Position numbers and translations under genes: made by a program. Below the pieces are notes generated by a model. That model ran no database searches. It saw only the letters and a list, made by a program, of their open reading frames with translations, and was not told the origin of the DNA. From positions 1 through 64,000 of the forward strand of contig JBBDIG010000017.1 in the NCBI GenBank assembly GCA_040880525.1: a stretch of DNA of 64,000 nucleotides, read 5' to 3'. Of the stretch, positions 12,401 through 20,898 are shown one piece after another (position 1 is the first letter of the stretch; each line of letters starts with the position of its first letter). The stretch comes from Bacteroidia bacterium. Its GTDB lineage: Bacteria; Bacteroidota; Bacteroidia; CAILMK01; JBBDIG01.

Positions 12401-12463
12401 TGGTCCGCAACTGCCACGGAAAATCGTATGACCAAAATCCTGAAGTCATTTAAAATAAAGAGA

Positions 12464-13717
12464 ATGAAGAAGGTCAAAGTCCTGTTGTCCATGCTTTTTC
12501 TGACACAAATATCAGTTGCTCAGGATATTGATATATGCAGAAGAGTTGTGGATCTTAGCATTGAAGCAATCAATAACCAATCCTCTACAAATCTGAATAA
12601 TCATCTGTCTGATGATTTTACTATGGCTGGACAAAAAGGAGAGACAGCAAAATTGGTCTTAGCCCAACTTTTATCGCAATTAGGAGAAAATGTAAAGTCC
12701 CACGAAGAAGTAAATCAAAATAAATTGAATGAAGGGCTGGAACTAAAGTACAGAATAGAGTATGAAAAAATGGGCATCAAAGAGGCTACGTTCATTTTCG
12801 ATAAGAATAATATGATAAAGGGTCTCAACCTTTTTAAGATAGAAGTTAAAACTTTAAATGATAAAAGTGAAATAAAAAAACCCAACAAGGACATCATTGA
12901 GGTTCCTTTCTATATGGCAGGTAATTTAATTGCAGTAAATGTTCTCTTAAATGGAGAAAAAAGAACATTCATTCTGGACAACGGTTCGCCCAAAGTCATA
13001 CTCAACTCAAAATACTTTTCCGGAAAAGAGAGGAGCCAAAGAACTATTTCATCATCAAAAGGGGTAAGTGGGAACATTTCGGGGATGGATATAGAGAACG
13101 TAGAGCAGCTTGATTTTGGTGGTATTCAGCTCATTAATCAAGAGGTAATTACTCTTGACTTATCTCATTTGGAAGAAAAATTAGATACAGATATTTATGG
13201 ACTTATTGGATTTGATCTCATTAAGGATTATGATATAATATTTAATTACAAGACGCTCAAACTCACCTTTATTAATCCAGATATTTTTGAGAAATATAGA
13301 GACGAAAATTTGCTACACAATAATTTAAGCTCAGTTCCATTCATGTTAGAAGGACATATACCGGTGGTTGAAGCACAAATTAACAATAAAACTTTAGCCT
13401 TTGGGATCGACTGCGGTGCTGAATCAAATTTGATTGATGATCATTTAATTCAATCCCTAAAAGGGCAGGTAAAGCGAATTAAAACTGACAGATTAGTAGG
13501 TGCTGAGAACAACCCCAAGGAGATTAAAATTGGCAAAATTAAAAATACCTTAGTAGGGAAAAAGGAATTTAAAAACCTGCCTACTGCGTTTAGTGATATA
13601 TCTCATTTAAATGAAGCTTATGGACTTAAACTTGACGGCTTGATCGGTTATCAAGTATTATCGAAGCAACGAACACTCCTTTCGTTTGCCCGAAAGGAGA
13701 TGATATTTATTGAATGA
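12464..13717 (+). CDS. Secreted retropepsin-like aspartyl protease homologue with N-terminal NTF2-like region
   Basis: 417 aa from ATG 12464, giving signal peptide MKKVKVLLSMLFLTQISVAQ. Residues about 22-125 look NTF2-like (alpha+beta). Two retropepsin-type lobes follow: FILDNGSPKVILN with D172 and, later, FGIDCGAESNLID with D316; each lobe closes with a strand pattern GLIGFDLIKDYDIIFN or GLIGYQVLSKQRTLLSF. Typical active sites read D-T-G or D-S-G; here they read D-N-G and D-C-G. Both aspartates remain, so activity is possible but not assured. More AT-rich than its neighbours. Ended by the terminator at 13804. An upstream ATG at 12428 would spoil the signal peptide. Confidence 0.75.
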   Translation: MKKVKVLLSMLFLTQISVAQDIDICRRVVDLSIEAINNQSSTNLNNHLSDDFTMAGQKGETAKLVLAQLLSQLGENVKSHEEVNQNKLNEGLELKYRIEYEKMGIKEATFIFDKNNMIKGLNLFKIEVKTLNDKSEIKKPNKDIIEVPFYMAGNLIAVNVLLNGEKRTFILDNGSPKVILNSKYFSGKERSQRTISSSKGVSGNISGMDIENVEQLDFGGIQLINQEVITLDLSHLEEKLDTDIYGLIGFDLIKDYDIIFNYKTLKLTFINPDIFEKYRDENLLHNNLSSVPFMLEGHIPVVEAQINNKTLAFGIDCGAESNLIDDHLIQSLKGQVKRIKTDRLVGAENNPKEIKIGKIKNTLVGKKEFKNLPTAFSDISHLNEAYGLKLDGLIGYQVLSKQRTLLSFARKEMIFIE

Positions 13718-13803
13718 TAAAATTGCGAATGGAAAGGCGAATCAGCGACAGGCTTTTTCATTACTTTAAAATTTAGTCGGTTTAATCTTCATGTATTCCT
13801 GTA

Positions 13804-13846
13804 GACGTGGGTTCTGAGATCGTTCGGAACCCGCGTCTCTTTGTTT
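13804..13846 (+). terminator. Rho-independent terminator
   Basis: GACGTGGGTTC (13804-13814) pairs with GAACCCGCGTC (13827-13837), one G-T wobble, followed by TCTTTGTTT. It ends the aspartyl-protease transcript and lies upstream of the metallopeptidase ATG at 13909, which argues against the GTG at 13807 as that gene's start. Confidence 0.85.
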
Positions 13847-13908: not shown

Positions 13909-15786
13909 ATGAAGCAAGAACCAATATCCGATTCCTTTATTGAGAAAGTTATCGCCACTATAGAAAAAGGCAGTTGGCTGGCGAAAAGGCTTCCGAGGCA
14001 CGGGAAGATCAGCATTGAAAAGCAGTTGCCCTACCTGATGGTATACCGCTACCCCAGCCGCGAAGATGATGCAGCGACCTTTAAGCTGGTTTTGTCAGAA
14101 TCATCCTATTTGCTTACTTCCAGGAACGACTACGAAACCTATCAAATCAGGAAACTGGTAAAAGCAATTGCCAATAAATTTTCAGTCCTGTTTCGCTCCT
14201 TTATGCTTTTTGAAATTTGGAGCGCTGACGAAGAAGACGATAACACCTTTAAGATAAAATGCCCTGTCGATGAGGCCCAAAGCACCGTAGAAATTCTTGA
14301 GCAAGAGTTGCAGAAAGTAAAGCGTCTCTATGCCTTTGCCAAAGTGGAAAAGGAATGCAATGACGTGCGCTATCCCAAGGGTTTTGAGCCGTTGCTTTCG
14401 CTGGAAGAGTGCAAGGATATCGGGATTTTACTGATCGGATTGCAAGTGCCTTCGCTGTTCAAAGATTCATTGGCAAATCAGCGCTATCCATTGCTCTTCC
14501 GAAGGTTGCAAAACCTGCTTTCCGGTGTATTTAAAAAAACCATTTACGACTTCATCCGGGTACAAACCACCTGTCCCGTTTCCAGCTATCAGAAGCTTGG
14601 AAGACGGACGCTGGATCGCAGCGTGTGGCACGTGGATAAGGAACTTGCCGCCATTGAGCAGAGCTACCAATTCCTGCTGCTTATATCCCCTGTAAACAGC
14701 CAGAGCGAATGGCTGAAATTCAGAAAGATGAAGTACAGCAAGAATCCGGAATTCCACTACCGCCTGCTACCTGTAGATCCTGACGAACTGAAAAGACGCC
14801 TCTACAAACTCAATCTGAAAAAGATCCATGATTCTGCGATGGCCTTTCTGCTGCGCGATAAACGGGAGGAACTGGATAAGCAGATCACGATGCTGGGCGA
14901 AAGGAATTCCAGATCCTTTATGCACAACAGCATCCGACTTTTCAATGGCATTGAAAACCGCTTTGTAAAAATAGCCGAGGGGTTGCTGGCTTCGCTGGAC
15001 GTAACAATTGAACATGCTCCCAAAATGATGGAAAACCGGGAGAAACCGGTTGGCGCAAAAGAATTTGCAAAAAAGGCCGGGGAAGAATTTGATCATTACA
15101 GGAAAATCTATCCTGATTTTTCTTCAAGGATTGAGGTGCGTGATGACCTGACCGGCTTGATGGTATCACAGGGAAATCTGCTGATTCCTTCAATATTGAA
15201 AATTTCCAGGTCGCGATTACAGCCGCTGCTGCAGCATGAGGTCGGCATCCATGTGCTGACCTACCAAAACGGGACTGCACAGCCGTTCCGGCAATTATAT
15301 AGCGGACTGGCCGGCTACGAGGAGTTGCAGGAGGGACTGGCCGTATTATCCGAATATCTGGTAGGAGGCCTTGATCGTCCGCGTTTGCGGTTGCTGGCCG
15401 CCCGGGTGGTGGCGGCCCATTCAGTGATGGAGGGAGCCGAATTCGTGGAAACTTTCCGGCTGCTTACGGGAACCTATCAGTTCACCCCAAAAACCGCCTT
15501 TGGTATCGCCACCCGCGTGTTTCAGGGTGGCGGATACATTGGCGATGTAATTTACCTGCGCGGCCTCACACGCCTCATGAAGCACCTCGAAAATGGTGGT
15601 GAACTTGAACCGCTCTTCATTGGAAAAATCGCTGAAAAGCACATTTCTGTTATGCATGAATTGCAGGAACGGGAAGTTCTTAAACCCGTTCCCCTTGTTC
15701 CACGTTACCTTGATCTCCCCTCTGTCCGGAAACGGCTGGACAAAGTCAAAAAAGGAATTCAACTCATCAATTTATTAGAGAAATAA
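13909..15786 (+). CDS. DUF1704 'flavohemoglobin expression-modulating QEGLA motif' metallopeptidase
   Basis: 625 aa from ATG 13909 (MKQEPISDSFIEKVI). The family signature is complete: H443-E444-V-G-I-H448 (zinc HExxxH) and QEGLA at 474-478, with a conserved region following (FQGGGYIGDVIYLRGL). The fold belongs to the clan that includes the animal tubulin tyrosine carboxypeptidases (MATCAP), so a carboxypeptidase acting on a C-terminal residue is the best family-level guess. The ATP-grasp gene starts 5 bases after the stop, so the two are co-transcribed; the GCS2 and AstE/AspA genes follow in the same direction. The flavohemoglobin name is historical and no flavohemoglobin gene is here. Confidence 0.92.
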   Translation: MKQEPISDSFIEKVIATIEKGSWLAKRLPRHGKISIEKQLPYLMVYRYPSREDDAATFKLVLSESSYLLTSRNDYETYQIRKLVKAIANKFSVLFRSFMLFEIWSADEEDDNTFKIKCPVDEAQSTVEILEQELQKVKRLYAFAKVEKECNDVRYPKGFEPLLSLEECKDIGILLIGLQVPSLFKDSLANQRYPLLFRRLQNLLSGVFKKTIYDFIRVQTTCPVSSYQKLGRRTLDRSVWHVDKELAAIEQSYQFLLLISPVNSQSEWLKFRKMKYSKNPEFHYRLLPVDPDELKRRLYKLNLKKIHDSAMAFLLRDKREELDKQITMLGERNSRSFMHNSIRLFNGIENRFVKIAEGLLASLDVTIEHAPKMMENREKPVGAKEFAKKAGEEFDHYRKIYPDFSSRIEVRDDLTGLMVSQGNLLIPSILKISRSRLQPLLQHEVGIHVLTYQNGTAQPFRQLYSGLAGYEELQEGLAVLSEYLVGGLDRPRLRLLAARVVAAHSVMEGAEFVETFRLLTGTYQFTPKTAFGIATRVFQGGGYIGDVIYLRGLTRLMKHLENGGELEPLFIGKIAEKHISVMHELQEREVLKPVPLVPRYLDLPSVRKRLDKVKKGIQLINLLEK

Positions 15787-15791
15787 CATAT

Positions 15792-16835
15792 ATGAATATT
15801 TGCTTTCTGGTCAATCAGATCAGCACAGAATACCCAACCTATGCTTCCATACTTCTTGCTTTCGCAGCGCATAAACGCGGGCATAACGTTTACCTGGCAG
15901 AAGTAGGCGGACTCACCTATTATCCTGATGGCCAGATGGGCACAAGAGCCCGGCATGTTCACAGCAGAAAATTTAAGAACACGACCACTTTTCTTGAGGC
16001 CCTGAAAAACAAGGTCAATTCAACTCAAGTATTTACCCGGGAACTTGATGTGCTTTGGCTCCGCTACAATCCGGCTGAAGAAGTTGACAACCGGTCATGG
16101 GCACAAAATGCTGGGATCGTCTTCGGACAAATAGCTGAGAAAAATGATGTGCTGGTGCTAAATCATCCTGGTACGCTTTCGTTTGCCATCAATAAAATGT
16201 ACTTCCAGCACTTTCCTGCCATCGTGCGGCCGCGAACCATTATTACGCGTAACGCAGATGAGATTATGAATTTTTATGAGCAAATGAATAAGCAGATCGT
16301 GCTGAAACCACTCCTGGGTTCCGGAGGCACGGATGTATTTCTGCTGAAAGATGAAGCCACCAACCTGAACCAGATCGTTCAGGCCATCAACCGGTCGGGC
16401 TACGTGATAGCCCAGGAATACCTGCCTGAAGCGGTGAAAGGCGATACACGAATCCTGATGGTAAACGGAAAACCGCTCACCGTTAAGAATAAATATTGTG
16501 CGATCAGCCGTGTGAATAAAACCAATGACGTACGCAGCAACATCAGCGCTGGTGGCGTTCCCAAAAAAGCAAAAATAACGGACAAGATGCTGGAACTTGC
16601 CGGGATCGTTGGACCCAAGCTCAGGCATGACGGACTTTTTTATGCCGGGCTTGACATTGCAGGCGACAAACTAATGGAGATCAACGTAATAAGTGCTGGA
16701 AACCTCCAAAGCGCCTGCACTCTCGAAGAAACAGATTTTACCGCTCCAATCATTGATGCAATAGAACGGAAGGTGTATTACAGAAAGCTATACGGTAACT
16801 CACTCACCAACCGCGAGCTTGCTACCATGGATTGA
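15792..16835 (+). CDS. GshB/RimK-like ATP-grasp peptide ligase
   Basis: 347 aa. The N-terminal half resembles the pre-ATP-grasp domain (MNICFLVNQISTEYPTYASI). ATP-grasp motifs: the Lys-Pro-loop region QIVLKPLLGSGGTDVFLL (residues about 167-184), the hinge VIAQEYLPEAVKGDTRILMV, and the metal-binding end YAGLDIAGDKLMEINVISAGNL. It forms an acyl-phosphate and joins it to an amine, as glutathione synthase does. No canonical gshA partner is present, and the neighbours are a carboxypeptidase-like enzyme and a GCS2 ligase, so a non-glutathione product is more likely. Five bases separate it from the upstream metallopeptidase. Confidence 0.88.
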   Translation: MNICFLVNQISTEYPTYASILLAFAAHKRGHNVYLAEVGGLTYYPDGQMGTRARHVHSRKFKNTTTFLEALKNKVNSTQVFTRELDVLWLRYNPAEEVDNRSWAQNAGIVFGQIAEKNDVLVLNHPGTLSFAINKMYFQHFPAIVRPRTIITRNADEIMNFYEQMNKQIVLKPLLGSGGTDVFLLKDEATNLNQIVQAINRSGYVIAQEYLPEAVKGDTRILMVNGKPLTVKNKYCAISRVNKTNDVRSNISAGGVPKKAKITDKMLELAGIVGPKLRHDGLFYAGLDIAGDKLMEINVISAGNLQSACTLEETDFTAPIIDAIERKVYYRKLYGNSLTNRELATMD

Positions 16836-17024
16836 AATGCGATCCGCGTTAAAAGCAAGCATTCTTACCTACGTATTTTTGCCGACATTTTCTGATGGCT
16901 CTGATCTGCAATCATTGCAAACGACATCCTTCCTACCATCACAGAAAAAAATTTCATATTTTAATACTCTGATAATCTTTGTTTTATAGCATATATCACC
17001 CACTATAATAAAAATACTTAAGTA

Positions 17025-17075
17025 TACGTAAACAATTACGTAGTTATCGCGTTTATAATACTAAACAACGATAAC
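17025..17075 (+). promoter_or_regulatory. Two adjacent palindromes upstream of the 17100 gene (candidate operators)
   Basis: TACGTAA (17025-17031) and TTACGTA (17036-17042) form a perfect inverted repeat with a 4-base spacer. Directly after it GTTATCG (17043-17049) and CGATAAC (17069-17075) form a second perfect inverted repeat around a 19-base AT-rich core. Both sit within 75 bases of the ATG. They could bind one or two regulators. The remaining 16836-17024 stretch is AT-rich with no gene. Confidence 0.5.
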
Positions 17076-17099
17076 AAACATCTCTAAAATATACACGTC

Positions 17100-17696
17100 A
17101 TGAAAGCTGCAATCAAAACCACGATCATATTCGCAATAGCACTTTTTACTGCGCAACTTTCAACTGCGCAAGCTCAGGATAGCAAAACGCAATACTGCAT
17201 CAAGCATACCTGCTACATCGTTAATCCGGCTACTGCTGAGAAACAGCAACAATTCAATGCCGATAATCAAAAAGCGGAAAAATCAGCCAAACTCATGTTG
17301 CGAAATCTCATCAATGAAATTGAAATGTCCATTGAATATGGCCAATACCTGCGCCAGTCATCATTTGTACAAAACGAGGATGGCTCGCTTACCGCCAATG
17401 TAGATTTTCAAAAAATATTTGAAAACTACGACCTGAATTATAATGAAGTTAAATTCATTGCTACGGCTAAAACCAAAGAAAATGGCTCCTTGCGCGATGT
17501 GCTACTCACTGCAAGTGAACTGCAGGAAGGCCTGACTATTTATCCCGATAAAAATGGTGAATTTAAACTGGAGTTAATGTTCCTGTTGAATGACGTCAGT
17601 TCTGAAAGACTGAACGTAACCGGTAACATGCAGGAGTATTTCTCATTCGCCATTCCTGTTAAAATTAGCGAGCAGAATCAACTTGCCGCTAAATAA
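17100..17696 (+). CDS. Secreted protein of unknown function
   Basis: 198 aa. Signal peptide MKAAIKTTIIFAIALFTAQ with cleavage after the AQA near residue 26. A short Cys pair (YCIKHTCYI, C-x4-C) follows near residues 32-40 and may form a disulfide. The rest is mixed alpha/beta with no recognised domain. It lies between the ATP-grasp and GCS2 genes but has its own palindromic control region and terminator, so it is a separate transcription unit inserted in the cluster. Confidence 0.65.
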   Translation: MKAAIKTTIIFAIALFTAQLSTAQAQDSKTQYCIKHTCYIVNPATAEKQQQFNADNQKAEKSAKLMLRNLINEIEMSIEYGQYLRQSSFVQNEDGSLTANVDFQKIFENYDLNYNEVKFIATAKTKENGSLRDVLLTASELQEGLTIYPDKNGEFKLELMFLLNDVSSERLNVTGNMQEYFSFAIPVKISEQNQLAAK

Positions 17697-17737
17697 CAGT
17701 AGCCCCCGGTCAAACTAATTATCCAATTATCAAGGAT

Positions 17738-17771
17738 AAAAAACCTCGTGTTATAAAACCCGGGGTTTTTT
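17738..17771 (+). terminator. Rho-independent terminator
   Basis: AAAAAACCTCG (17738-17748) pairs with CGGGGTTTTTT (17761-17771), one G-T wobble. It follows the 17100 gene by about 40 bases. The rest of 17772-18023 shows no gene. Confidence 0.85.
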
Positions 17772-18023
17772 GTATTTAATCTTTATCCCAATTATAATTT
17801 TTCATATTTAAATACATAAATAAGAACCTTGTATTGTGAATTATCACTGGTATTATCAGGAAATTTTCTCATGTTCTGTTTGCCCGGATTTCCCTTTCCT
17901 GCCGGATTGCGGAAGAAGGCATTTTGTTCCTGTAAAGGCTCAACTAATCACGGTTCGCCTTGTTGAAAGGATACAATTTTTTAAACATTCATAATCCATA
18001 ATTAATCAAGCTAAAAACAACTA

Positions 18024-19925
18024 ATGGGGAGTAAAAAAATAAAGCTTCTTGACAATATATCTGACCGCAAAGTCTTTAGCCAGCATTTGCTGAAAGACAT
18101 GCGCGCCCTGGAGAAAATGCTTCAGGAAGATAAATTTGAGAAGGGCGTGCAGCGCATTGGCGCAGAACAGGAAATCTGCATGATAGATAAATCAATGCGC
18201 CCGGCACCCATCGTTATGGAAATGCTAAAGAATATCCGGGATGATCACTTCACGACTGAATATGCAAAATTCAACATGGAGATAAATCTGGACCCGCAGC
18301 CCTTTACGGGAAAATGTTTTTCCAAAATGAAAACGCAACTCACCAGGTTCCTTAAAAAAGCAGAGAACGCTGCAAATAAATTTGAAAGCAACGTGATCCT
18401 GGCCGGTATTCTCCCTACTATTCGTGAATCGGATATGCGCATGGAGAACCTCACCCCGGAGCCCCGGTTTGAAGCCTTGAACAGCATCATTCATAAAATG
18501 CGGGGCAGCAATTACGAATTCAGCATTCGCGGAATTGACGAGCTCATCAGCCGCGAAAATCCCACGGTGTTTGGCGGAAGCATTACCAGTTGGCAAGTTC
18601 ACCTTCAGGTAGACCCGCAGGACATTGTGGAAAAATTCAATTGGGCGCAAGCCATTGCAGGCCCTTCGCTTTGCATTGGCACCAATTCTCCCATTTTCCT
18701 GGGTAAAAGACTTTGGAAGGAAACGCGCATGGCCATCTTTCAGCAGTCGAGCGACATCAGGCGGAAGCACGCTATGAAACGCGAAAAAAGCGCGCGTGTG
18801 GAATTCGGAAACAATTGGGTGGAAGGTTCCATTACAGAACTATTCCGGGAAGACCTGGCGCGCTACTCCCTCCTGTTGGGAACCGAGGTAGAAGAAGATT
18901 CCCTGGAAGCGCTGGCTACCGGAAAAGTACCACAGTTAACAGCCCTTACTTTCCAGAACGGTATGGTATATCGCTGGAACCGCGCCTGCTACGGGATCAC
19001 GGATGGCAAGCCCCACCTGCGGATCGAAAACCGGCTGCTCCCCTCCGGCCCAAGTGTGGAAGATGAAATAGCCAACTCAGCTTTCTGGCTGGGACTGATG
19101 AATGGAATGCCTGATTCTTACAAAAACATCAGTAAAAAAATGGAATTCGATGATGCCAAAACGAATTTTATAAATGCTGCGAGGATGGGTCTTGACGTGC
19201 AGTTTCAATGGATGAAAAACAGCAAACCGGTAACTGCGCAGGAACTGTTGCTGAAGGAGATGCTGCCGATTGCCCGCCAGGGATTAGCGAACGCAAAGAT
19301 CAACAAAGAGGAAGCAGCCCACTACCTGGGAATAATAGAAGAACGGATAAAAAGCCGGCAAACAGGATCGAAATGGATACTGGACTCTTATGCGCAGCTT
19401 AATAAAAACATGAAAAAGGATGAAAGCATCCTGACCCTGACAGAAGCAATGGTAGTGCGCCAGCGCGAAGGAAAACCGGTACATAAATGGAACCTGGCCC
19501 AGCCTGACGAAGCGGGATCAACCGCGCAAAAGTTCTCGCGCATTGACCAGCTTATGACAACGGATCTTTTTACCGTTCAGGAAAATGACCTGATTGACCT
19601 CGCTGCCAGCATCATGAACTGGAAAAAAATCGGACATATCCCCGTGGAAGACGAGAAAGGAAAACTGGTGGGGCTGATCACGAAAAATTCACTGCTCAGC
19701 TATTTTGTGGAAAGAATTGGCGACCAGGTGGAATCGCATCCGGTAAAGGATCTTATGATCAATAATCTGGTGACAGTAAAACCGGATACGCCCATTAAAA
19801 ATGCCGTAAAAATGCTGATGGAAAAAAATATAACATGCCTGCCGGTAGTGGAAAAAGGTAAACTCCTTGGCCTCGTTACCGAACATGACATTGTGAAAAT
19901 AGCACGGAATCTTTTTAACGACTAA
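18024..19925 (+). CDS. GCS2-family glutamate-cysteine ligase-like enzyme with C-terminal CBS pair
   Basis: 633 aa. Residues about 20-430 match the GCS2/carboxylate-amine ligase fold (glutamine-synthetase-like active site): RIGAEQEICMID, then FNMEINLDPQPFTG, the substrate loop GGSITSWQVHLQVDP, and the arginine-rich region RRKHAMKREKSARVEFG. Residues about 498-633 are two CBS motifs (IDQLMTTDLFTVQENDLID; VKDLMINNLVTVKPDTPIK) ending in LPVV-LGLVTEHDIVKIA, which usually bind ATP, AMP or SAM. Such a fusion suggests a ligase switched by cellular energy or adenosyl ligand. It joins an amino acid gamma-carboxyl to an amine; the actual substrate is unknown. The AstE/AspA gene starts 16 bases downstream. 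Confidence 0.88.
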   Translation: MGSKKIKLLDNISDRKVFSQHLLKDMRALEKMLQEDKFEKGVQRIGAEQEICMIDKSMRPAPIVMEMLKNIRDDHFTTEYAKFNMEINLDPQPFTGKCFSKMKTQLTRFLKKAENAANKFESNVILAGILPTIRESDMRMENLTPEPRFEALNSIIHKMRGSNYEFSIRGIDELISRENPTVFGGSITSWQVHLQVDPQDIVEKFNWAQAIAGPSLCIGTNSPIFLGKRLWKETRMAIFQQSSDIRRKHAMKREKSARVEFGNNWVEGSITELFREDLARYSLLLGTEVEEDSLEALATGKVPQLTALTFQNGMVYRWNRACYGITDGKPHLRIENRLLPSGPSVEDEIANSAFWLGLMNGMPDSYKNISKKMEFDDAKTNFINAARMGLDVQFQWMKNSKPVTAQELLLKEMLPIARQGLANAKINKEEAAHYLGIIEERIKSRQTGSKWILDSYAQLNKNMKKDESILTLTEAMVVRQREGKPVHKWNLAQPDEAGSTAQKFSRIDQLMTTDLFTVQENDLIDLAASIMNWKKIGHIPVEDEKGKLVGLITKNSLLSYFVERIGDQVESHPVKDLMINNLVTVKPDTPIKNAVKMLMEKNITCLPVVEKGKLLGLVTEHDIVKIARNLFND

Positions 19926-19941
19926 ACCAAAAACTAAAGTT

Positions 19942-20898
19942 ATGGTAGAAGTACTGATAAAAGCCACCGAAGAAAAATTTGAAACCCGCAGAGAATTAGG
20001 CTCCTACACCGGCACTGAAGAGGGGCCGGTCCTGGTAGTATTTGGCGGAATCCATGGCAATGAGACCTCCGGGATTTGTGCCTTGCAAAAAGTGCTGACC
20101 AAACTGGAGCGGCTCCAACTTCCCTTCCGGGGCCGGCTCATTGCCCTGGCCGGTAACCTGAGAGCCCTGGAAAAAGGAGACCGCTACATTGATATGGACC
20201 TGAACCGCCTTTGGACAAATGATAAAGTGGCCGCCATTATGAAAGACCATGAAACCGTGGCGAAAGACATTTCCGAAGCCCATGAACTCTTTGAACTTAA
20301 TAAGATAATTCTCAAGGAAATTGAAGAAGCAGGCGAGCGTAAGATCTACTTCCTGGATCTGCATACAACCTCCTCCGTGAGCCAGCCTTTCATCAGCATT
20401 GATAGTCTCCCGATCAACCGGAAAATGGCCAATCTCTTTCCGGTATACACCATTCTGAATAAACCGGGTGTACTTACCGGAACGCTTACCCACCATATAA
20501 ATGAAATGGGTTATCCGGCAATATGCTACGAGGCCGGGCAACATGATGCGCTTTCATCCATCGAAAACCAGGAAGCAATAATATGGCTCGCCCTTAGTGC
20601 TGCCGGCCTGATGCGTGATGATGACATTCCGAGGTACCAATTATTTTATGAAGAGCTCTCCAAATCCACGACCGAAGGCAGGAAAAATTTCCGGATGGCC
20701 TTTCGATATTCTATTCATATTGATGAACAATTTAAAATGGAACCCGGCTATGTGAATTTCGAAAAAATAAAGGCAGGACAAATATTGGCTCGAAATCAAA
20801 AAGGTGCAATTAAAGCAGAAATTGATGGCCGCCTTTTCATGCCGCTCTACCAGCCACAGGGAAATGACGGCTTCTTCATAATAGAAGAAGTGATATAG
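19942..20898 (+). CDS. AstE/AspA-family zinc deacylase (succinylglutamate desuccinylase/aspartoacylase-like)
   Basis: 318 aa. Zinc and catalytic positions of the M14-like family are all present: GGIHGNETSG (H38, E41), YIDMDLNR (arginine substrate clamp region), FLDLHTT (H141), and YEAGQHDA (E197, general base). Family members remove an acyl group from an amino acid, for example succinyl-glutamate or N-acetyl-aspartate. It is the last gene of the metallopeptidase/ATP-grasp/GCS2 cluster and could remove a protecting or capping acyl group from the product. No arginine-succinyltransferase genes are nearby. Confidence 0.9.
   Translation: MVEVLIKATEEKFETRRELGSYTGTEEGPVLVVFGGIHGNETSGICALQKVLTKLERLQLPFRGRLIALAGNLRALEKGDRYIDMDLNRLWTNDKVAAIMKDHETVAKDISEAHELFELNKIILKEIEEAGERKIYFLDLHTTSSVSQPFISIDSLPINRKMANLFPVYTILNKPGVLTGTLTHHINEMGYPAICYEAGQHDALSSIENQEAIIWLALSAAGLMRDDDIPRYQLFYEELSKSTTEGRKNFRMAFRYSIHIDEQFKMEPGYVNFEKIKAGQILARNQKGAIKAEIDGRLFMPLYQPQGNDGFFIIEEVI

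Follow-up and report, generated by a model that had tools for sequence, protein, structure and literature searches.

Two conserved, probable ligase-hydrolase modules lie side by side in a Bacteroidia genome

The stretch of DNA analysed here (the window) comprises positions 1 to 64,000 of contig JBBDIG010000017.1 from a Bacteroidia bacterium, and one strand of it carries, within 7 kb, four genes in two close pairs: a MATCAP (DUF1704/QEGLA) metallopeptidase with a GshB-like ATP-grasp ligase, termed module A, and a GCS2-fold carboxylate-amine ligase ending in a CBS pair (GCS2-CBS) with an AstE/AspA-type zinc amidohydrolase (AstE), termed module B (Table 1). A preliminary description had placed these genes so, with gaps of 5 bases in the first pair and 16 bases in the second, and open reading frame positions and, GCS2 apart, Pfam agree; it had further joined all four into a single peptide-building and trimming pathway. 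Based on the comparisons reported here, we propose that the locus consists of two conserved ligase-hydrolase modules standing side by side, in which two ATP-driven ligases and their matching hydrolases would build and trim, with no obligate four-step pathway, and we give this reading a probability of about 0.6. That the pairs are two conserved modules is itself well supported.

Gene layout of the locus

The two pairs are separated by 1188 bases, which contain the gene of a small secreted protein, matching no family in Pfam or NCBIfam, and a strong terminator-type hairpin whose outer stem spans 13 pairs, together with a T-run (-16.4 kcal/mol, z -3.55, none of 200 shuffles being as strong). Since this gene and hairpin lie between the pairs, and a second hairpin lies upstream of MATCAP, the sequence suggests that modules A and B are probably transcribed separately, as two transcription units.

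Table 1. Positions of the genes, domain and hairpins of the locus in the window
Feature	Position	Strand	Evidence
MATCAP/DUF1704/QEGLA HExxxH metallopeptidase, 625 residues, module A	13909-15786	+	Pfam MATCAP/DUF1704, 283 bits; best fold match human MATCAP 7z6s
MATCAP N-terminal domain, about residues 1-235, like a degenerate N-formylglutamate amidohydrolase (FGase), without zinc motifs	13909-14613	+	Fold match, hhalign, motif count
GshB-like ATP-grasp ligase, 347 residues, module A	15792-16835	+	Pfam GSH-S_ATP, 168 bits, and GSH-S_N
Small secreted protein, 198 residues, between the modules, probably unrelated	17100-17696	+	Without Pfam or NCBIfam family
GCS2-fold carboxylate-amine ligase with C-terminal CBS pair, 633 residues, module B	18024-19925	+	CBS pair, 102 bits; model fold
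AstE/AspA-type zinc amidohydrolase, 318 residues, module B (may also serve module A)	19942-20898	+	Pfam AstE_AspA_cat, 77 bits; tree
Terminator-like hairpin upstream of module A, 16-pair stem	13803-13838	+	
Strong intrinsic-terminator-type hairpin between the modules, single match in the window	17736-17773	+	

Conservation of the two modules

MATCAP loci were collected by a profile scan with one genome per species, and the best 80, of at least 80 in total, were compared in neighbourhoods of at most about 9-10 kb, some of them on short contigs. Among these 80 loci, the GshB-like gene adjoins MATCAP in 79, the remaining one ending at a contig edge, and it lies within 600 bases directly after MATCAP in 76 and on the same strand in 75, with module A occurring in at least 14 phyla. 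The third gene of the module codes for an enzyme like N-formylglutamate amidohydrolase (FGase) in 39 of them and for AstE in 33 but never for both, and FGase accompanies the module in at least 13 phyla, AstE in Bacteroidota only; eight loci hold neither, several of these ending at contig edges. This mutual exclusivity suggests that module A requires a deacylase. Additionally, 18 further MATCAP loci were found in 346 genomes of the phylum, and the GshB-like gene is present in 17 of them and AstE in three, the rest having FGase except for a single fusion and a single divergent locus. A GCS2 gene within up to 9 kb of MATCAP was found in none of the best 80 loci, nor was one found near MATCAP in any of the 18.

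Module B is widespread in Bacteroidota and allies. GCS2-CBS occurs in 102 of the 346 genomes, a count that includes shorter relatives without CBS (for example at loci L136 and L146), and AstE follows it directly on the same strand in 24 of 45 GCS2-CBS loci, two further cases being probable (L045, at a contig edge, and L146, overlapping). Near GCS2-CBS, neither MATCAP nor GshB nor FGase was found in any of the 44 loci other than the window. A four-gene operon conserved in relatives is therefore rejected, as the modules are joined in no locus but the window, and the single four-gene pathway of the preliminary description is not supported by these counts, while its ligase-plus-hydrolase logic is supported: by the criterion of scattered occurrence in relatives, which that description had set itself, the four-gene claim fails, and the two-gene claims stand. 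Within the window's order, one other sampled genome has GCS2-CBS and no other has MATCAP.

Several further arrangements were seen around the modules. CorA and lactonase genes are frequent near module A, not universal, and a CorA-type magnesium transporter gene stands close to it in several phyla (L149, L166, L180, L190 and ten Flavobacteriaceae loci). A glutamate/aspartate symporter (SDF) gene and a second GshB-like gene adjoin FGase-MATCAP in one family (f57; L076, L077, L081-L086), MATCAP-GshB pairs are repeated in tandem in Planctomycetota and Verrucomicrobiota (L180, L185, L191), and two GCS2-CBS genes stand in tandem ahead of AstE in family f76 (L119, L120, L121, L142, L145). The frequent neighbours of module A were considered as a clue to its product and set aside, as the largest sets, which come from high-GC loci and lie on the strand opposite to the core genes, resemble antisense frames. 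In Photobacterium damselae at low salt, a QEGLA gene (RS17025) is up 27.5-fold and a nearby GshB gene (RS17020) 38-fold (PMC10308900), and this joint rise fits a joint, perhaps osmotic, role of the two.

Features of the four proteins

The first gene had been described as an HEVGIH/QEGLA metallopeptidase, and this is borne out, the Pfam match being joined by an HExxxH motif (HEVGIH) at residues 443-448 and the subsequent QEGLA with E475, both invariant in relatives, as are the residues H443, E444, H448 and E475. MATCAP enzymes were identified as tubulin carboxypeptidases only recently. In a fold search of the structure model (pLDDT 92), the core matches human MATCAP with an E-value of 2.5e-8 and a TM-score of 0.71 by target length, and the likeness to the MATCAP/TMCP tubulin carboxypeptidases (KIAA0895L, KIAA0895) consists in the HExxxH and EGLA core. 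However, the window protein is bacterial, carries an FGase-like N-terminal domain, is linked to an ATP-grasp ligase and lacks the Lys of the (T/S)KD motif, a conserved, possibly defining Lys-Asp pair near the C-terminus of the core: residue 545 (codon 15541-15543) is Gly, where Lys is nearly invariant in relatives. In a tree with long branches, as all trees here have, the FGase-linked MATCAPs form a clade (98) that does not include the window MATCAP.

No Pfam family matches the N-terminal 235 residues of the long bacterial MATCAPs. The model of this domain gives a weaker, moderate match to a phage poly-gamma-glutamate hydrolase (3a9l) and an FGase (2q7s), at Foldseek E-values of only 0.005-0.02, and profile comparison by hhalign matches it to the FGases of module A operons at an E-value of 1.8e-6 and not to AstE. 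The zinc and substrate motifs DxH and FExDxNR are present in none of 41 long MATCAPs, versus 43 and 45 of 48 FGases, and at L080:9136-11139 (minus strand) an FGase with intact motifs is fused to MATCAP. We read the N-terminal third of long MATCAPs, with moderate support from Foldseek, as a degenerate, inactivated FGase domain, which is new here; together with the intact fusion it ties FGase to MATCAP, and it could perhaps be a docking or regulatory part.

For the ligase of module B, PF04107 gave no match to the protein, whether by hmmscan or in a search of the whole genome. Despite this, the GCS2 name given to it at the outset is right, because the best solved folds for this region of the confident AlphaFold model (pLDDT 90) are plant and yeast glutamate-cysteine ligase and YbdK (2gwc, 3ig5, 1r8g; E about 1e-12); the C-terminal tail matches nucleotide-binding CBS pairs of the AcuB type.

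The window AstE exceeds the AstE_AspA_cat cut-off of 25 bits, contains the HGNE and DxNR motifs and aligns to AstE 1yw6, and scores below the equivalog cut-offs for AstE and aspartoacylase (58 versus 306; 55 versus 180). AstE proteins of its single subfamily are found with either module in different genomes, and the window genome holds one AstE of this subfamily and no FGase. As FGase is missing from the genome, the window AstE may serve both modules, and with the swapping of the subfamily between modules an indirect link between them survives. The MATCAP-linked AstE proteins form one clade (bootstrap 100, SH-aLRT 96), and in the best tree the window protein lies outside it, on the GCS2-linked side. 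The window possibly resembles a state in which AstE moved from module B to module A.

Proposed chemistry and competing explanations

Amide bonds are made by both ATP-grasp enzymes and GCS2 enzymes, and AspA, AstE and HutG free acidic amino acids from their N-acyl derivatives. We propose that in module A the ATP-grasp ligase would add amino acids, probably glutamate, to an acceptor carboxylate, that MATCAP would trim C-terminal residues, and that the N-acyl-amino-acid bond then left would be hydrolysed by a third enzyme, which in other loci is FGase or AstE and here is probably the neighbouring AstE. In module B, GCS2 would couple the glutamate side-chain carboxylate to an amine under adenine-nucleotide control through the CBS pair, and AstE would reverse this reaction. 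The exchange between FGase and AstE agrees with both cleaving one kind of bond, acyl-NH-Glu/Asp, and the best reading of the product is a small acidic peptide or tail, probably containing glutamate. The human homologues TMCP1/2 are carboxypeptidases which shorten polyglutamate chains (PMC10499314).

A comparable arrangement is the RimK-RimB system of ribosomal S6 glutamylation, wherein an ATP-grasp glutamate ligase is genetically linked to a glutamate-trimming peptidase (PMC12239564). The likeness lies in this linkage of ligase and peptidase; however, the RimB peptidase is a retropepsin rather than a MATCAP and the window ligase is GshB-like, a true RimK being encoded elsewhere in the window genome (L235). 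Directly upstream of module A, at 12428-13717, lies a gene for a probably secreted protein with an Asp_protease_2 domain in two stretches; we asked whether this retropepsin-like gene might be an analogue of RimB, and no homologue was found in the searched module loci. In the amidoligase neighbourhoods described by Iyer et al. in 2009, ligases of the ATP-grasp and GCS2 types are reportedly predicted to be linked to peptidases and to amidohydrolases. Furthermore, ATP-grasp, GCS2 and FGase classes do occur together in clusters of an RLAN-RimK ATP-grasp, a GCS2 without CBS and FGase (L232:7885-11265, L233:8400-12082, L234:8790-12156), which differ from the window in lacking MATCAP and CBS and in the ATP-grasp subfamily.

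Such clusters (genomes G370, G341 and G301) lend something to the original proposal of one four-step pathway, in which GCS2 would start a gamma-linked tail, the ATP-grasp ligase extend it, MATCAP trim it and AstE remove a cap; so do the single strand, the swapping of AstE between both modules in evolution, the lack of FGase in the genome, and a co-occurrence of MATCAP and GCS2 slightly above expectation in the 346 genomes (Fisher p 0.045). However, the co-occurrence is not significant without the window (p 0.116), the combination is seen once among all loci compared, the pairs are set apart by a probably unrelated gene and by the terminator-type hairpin, and three genomes of the phylum have MATCAP-GshB-AstE without GCS2-CBS, so that we consider the four-step pathway unlikely. 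Glutathione synthesis by the two ligases is likewise unlikely, and the explanation that they simply make glutathione is very improbable. It would account for the GCS2 and GshB folds, shared with GshA/GshB synthesis, with plant and yeast glutamate-cysteine ligase as the nearest folds of the former, and for a second ligase which has both GSH-S_N and GSH-S_ATP domains and aligns in its motifs with GshB of E. coli (1gsa, which the family profile matches at E 5e-62). This homologue, however, scores below all NCBIfam glutathione-synthetase cut-offs (206.3 versus 272, 193.3 versus 299.05, 395 versus 408), classical GshA (PF04262) was found in none of 18 genomes tested, and five MATCAP-GshB genomes (G402, G189, G145, G040, G062) are without PF04262, PF04107 and GCS2-CBS. 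The ligases also come from separately conserved modules and are never neighbours elsewhere in the loci compared, the GshB-like gene keeping MATCAP and GCS2-CBS keeping AstE, not GshB, and the earlier view of them as more than glutathione makers is supported.

A looser explanation is that the pairs are unrelated neighbours, AstE acting only with GCS2 and MATCAP-GshB doing without a deacylase, its degenerate FGase domain sufficing or its function being reduced. The best-tree position of the window AstE, the MATCAP loci with neither FGase nor AstE, and the change of Lys545 to Gly agree with it, whereas a domain whose zinc motifs are gone from each of the 41 sequences examined can hardly replace FGase and the FGase/AstE exclusivity suggests a required deacylase; we regard this explanation as rather improbable. 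Certain observations also weigh against the two-module reading that we prefer. About half of the GCS2-CBS loci have no adjacent AstE, the substrates of all four enzymes are ones that we infer, and, since Lys545 is replaced by Gly, the window MATCAP may differ in specificity or activity. In the approximately unbiased (AU) test, placing the window AstE with the MATCAP-linked clade, at its base, is one log-likelihood unit worse and not rejected (p 0.40), so that it could belong to module A, and the tree was not accepted as proof of origin.

A broader scenario, which we offer tentatively and hold to be doubtful, is that the window captures an intermediate of a swap, in which a GCS2-linked AstE replaces FGase in a MATCAP/ATP-grasp/deacylase system of at least 14 phyla that would add glutamate-type tails to a protein or peptide and remove them again, a bacterial counterpart, perhaps a forerunner, of the cycle of ligase and MATCAP that acts on tubulin in eukaryotes. 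The strict linkage of MATCAP to a single ATP-grasp ligase, together with a deacylase that can be exchanged, yields a reaction scheme open to testing, and the exchange of FGase and AstE narrows the product to one cleavable by enzymes that otherwise act on N-acyl forms to free amino acids of acidic or related kind. Module A would thus put the ligase/MATCAP pair in bacteria, outside tubulin.

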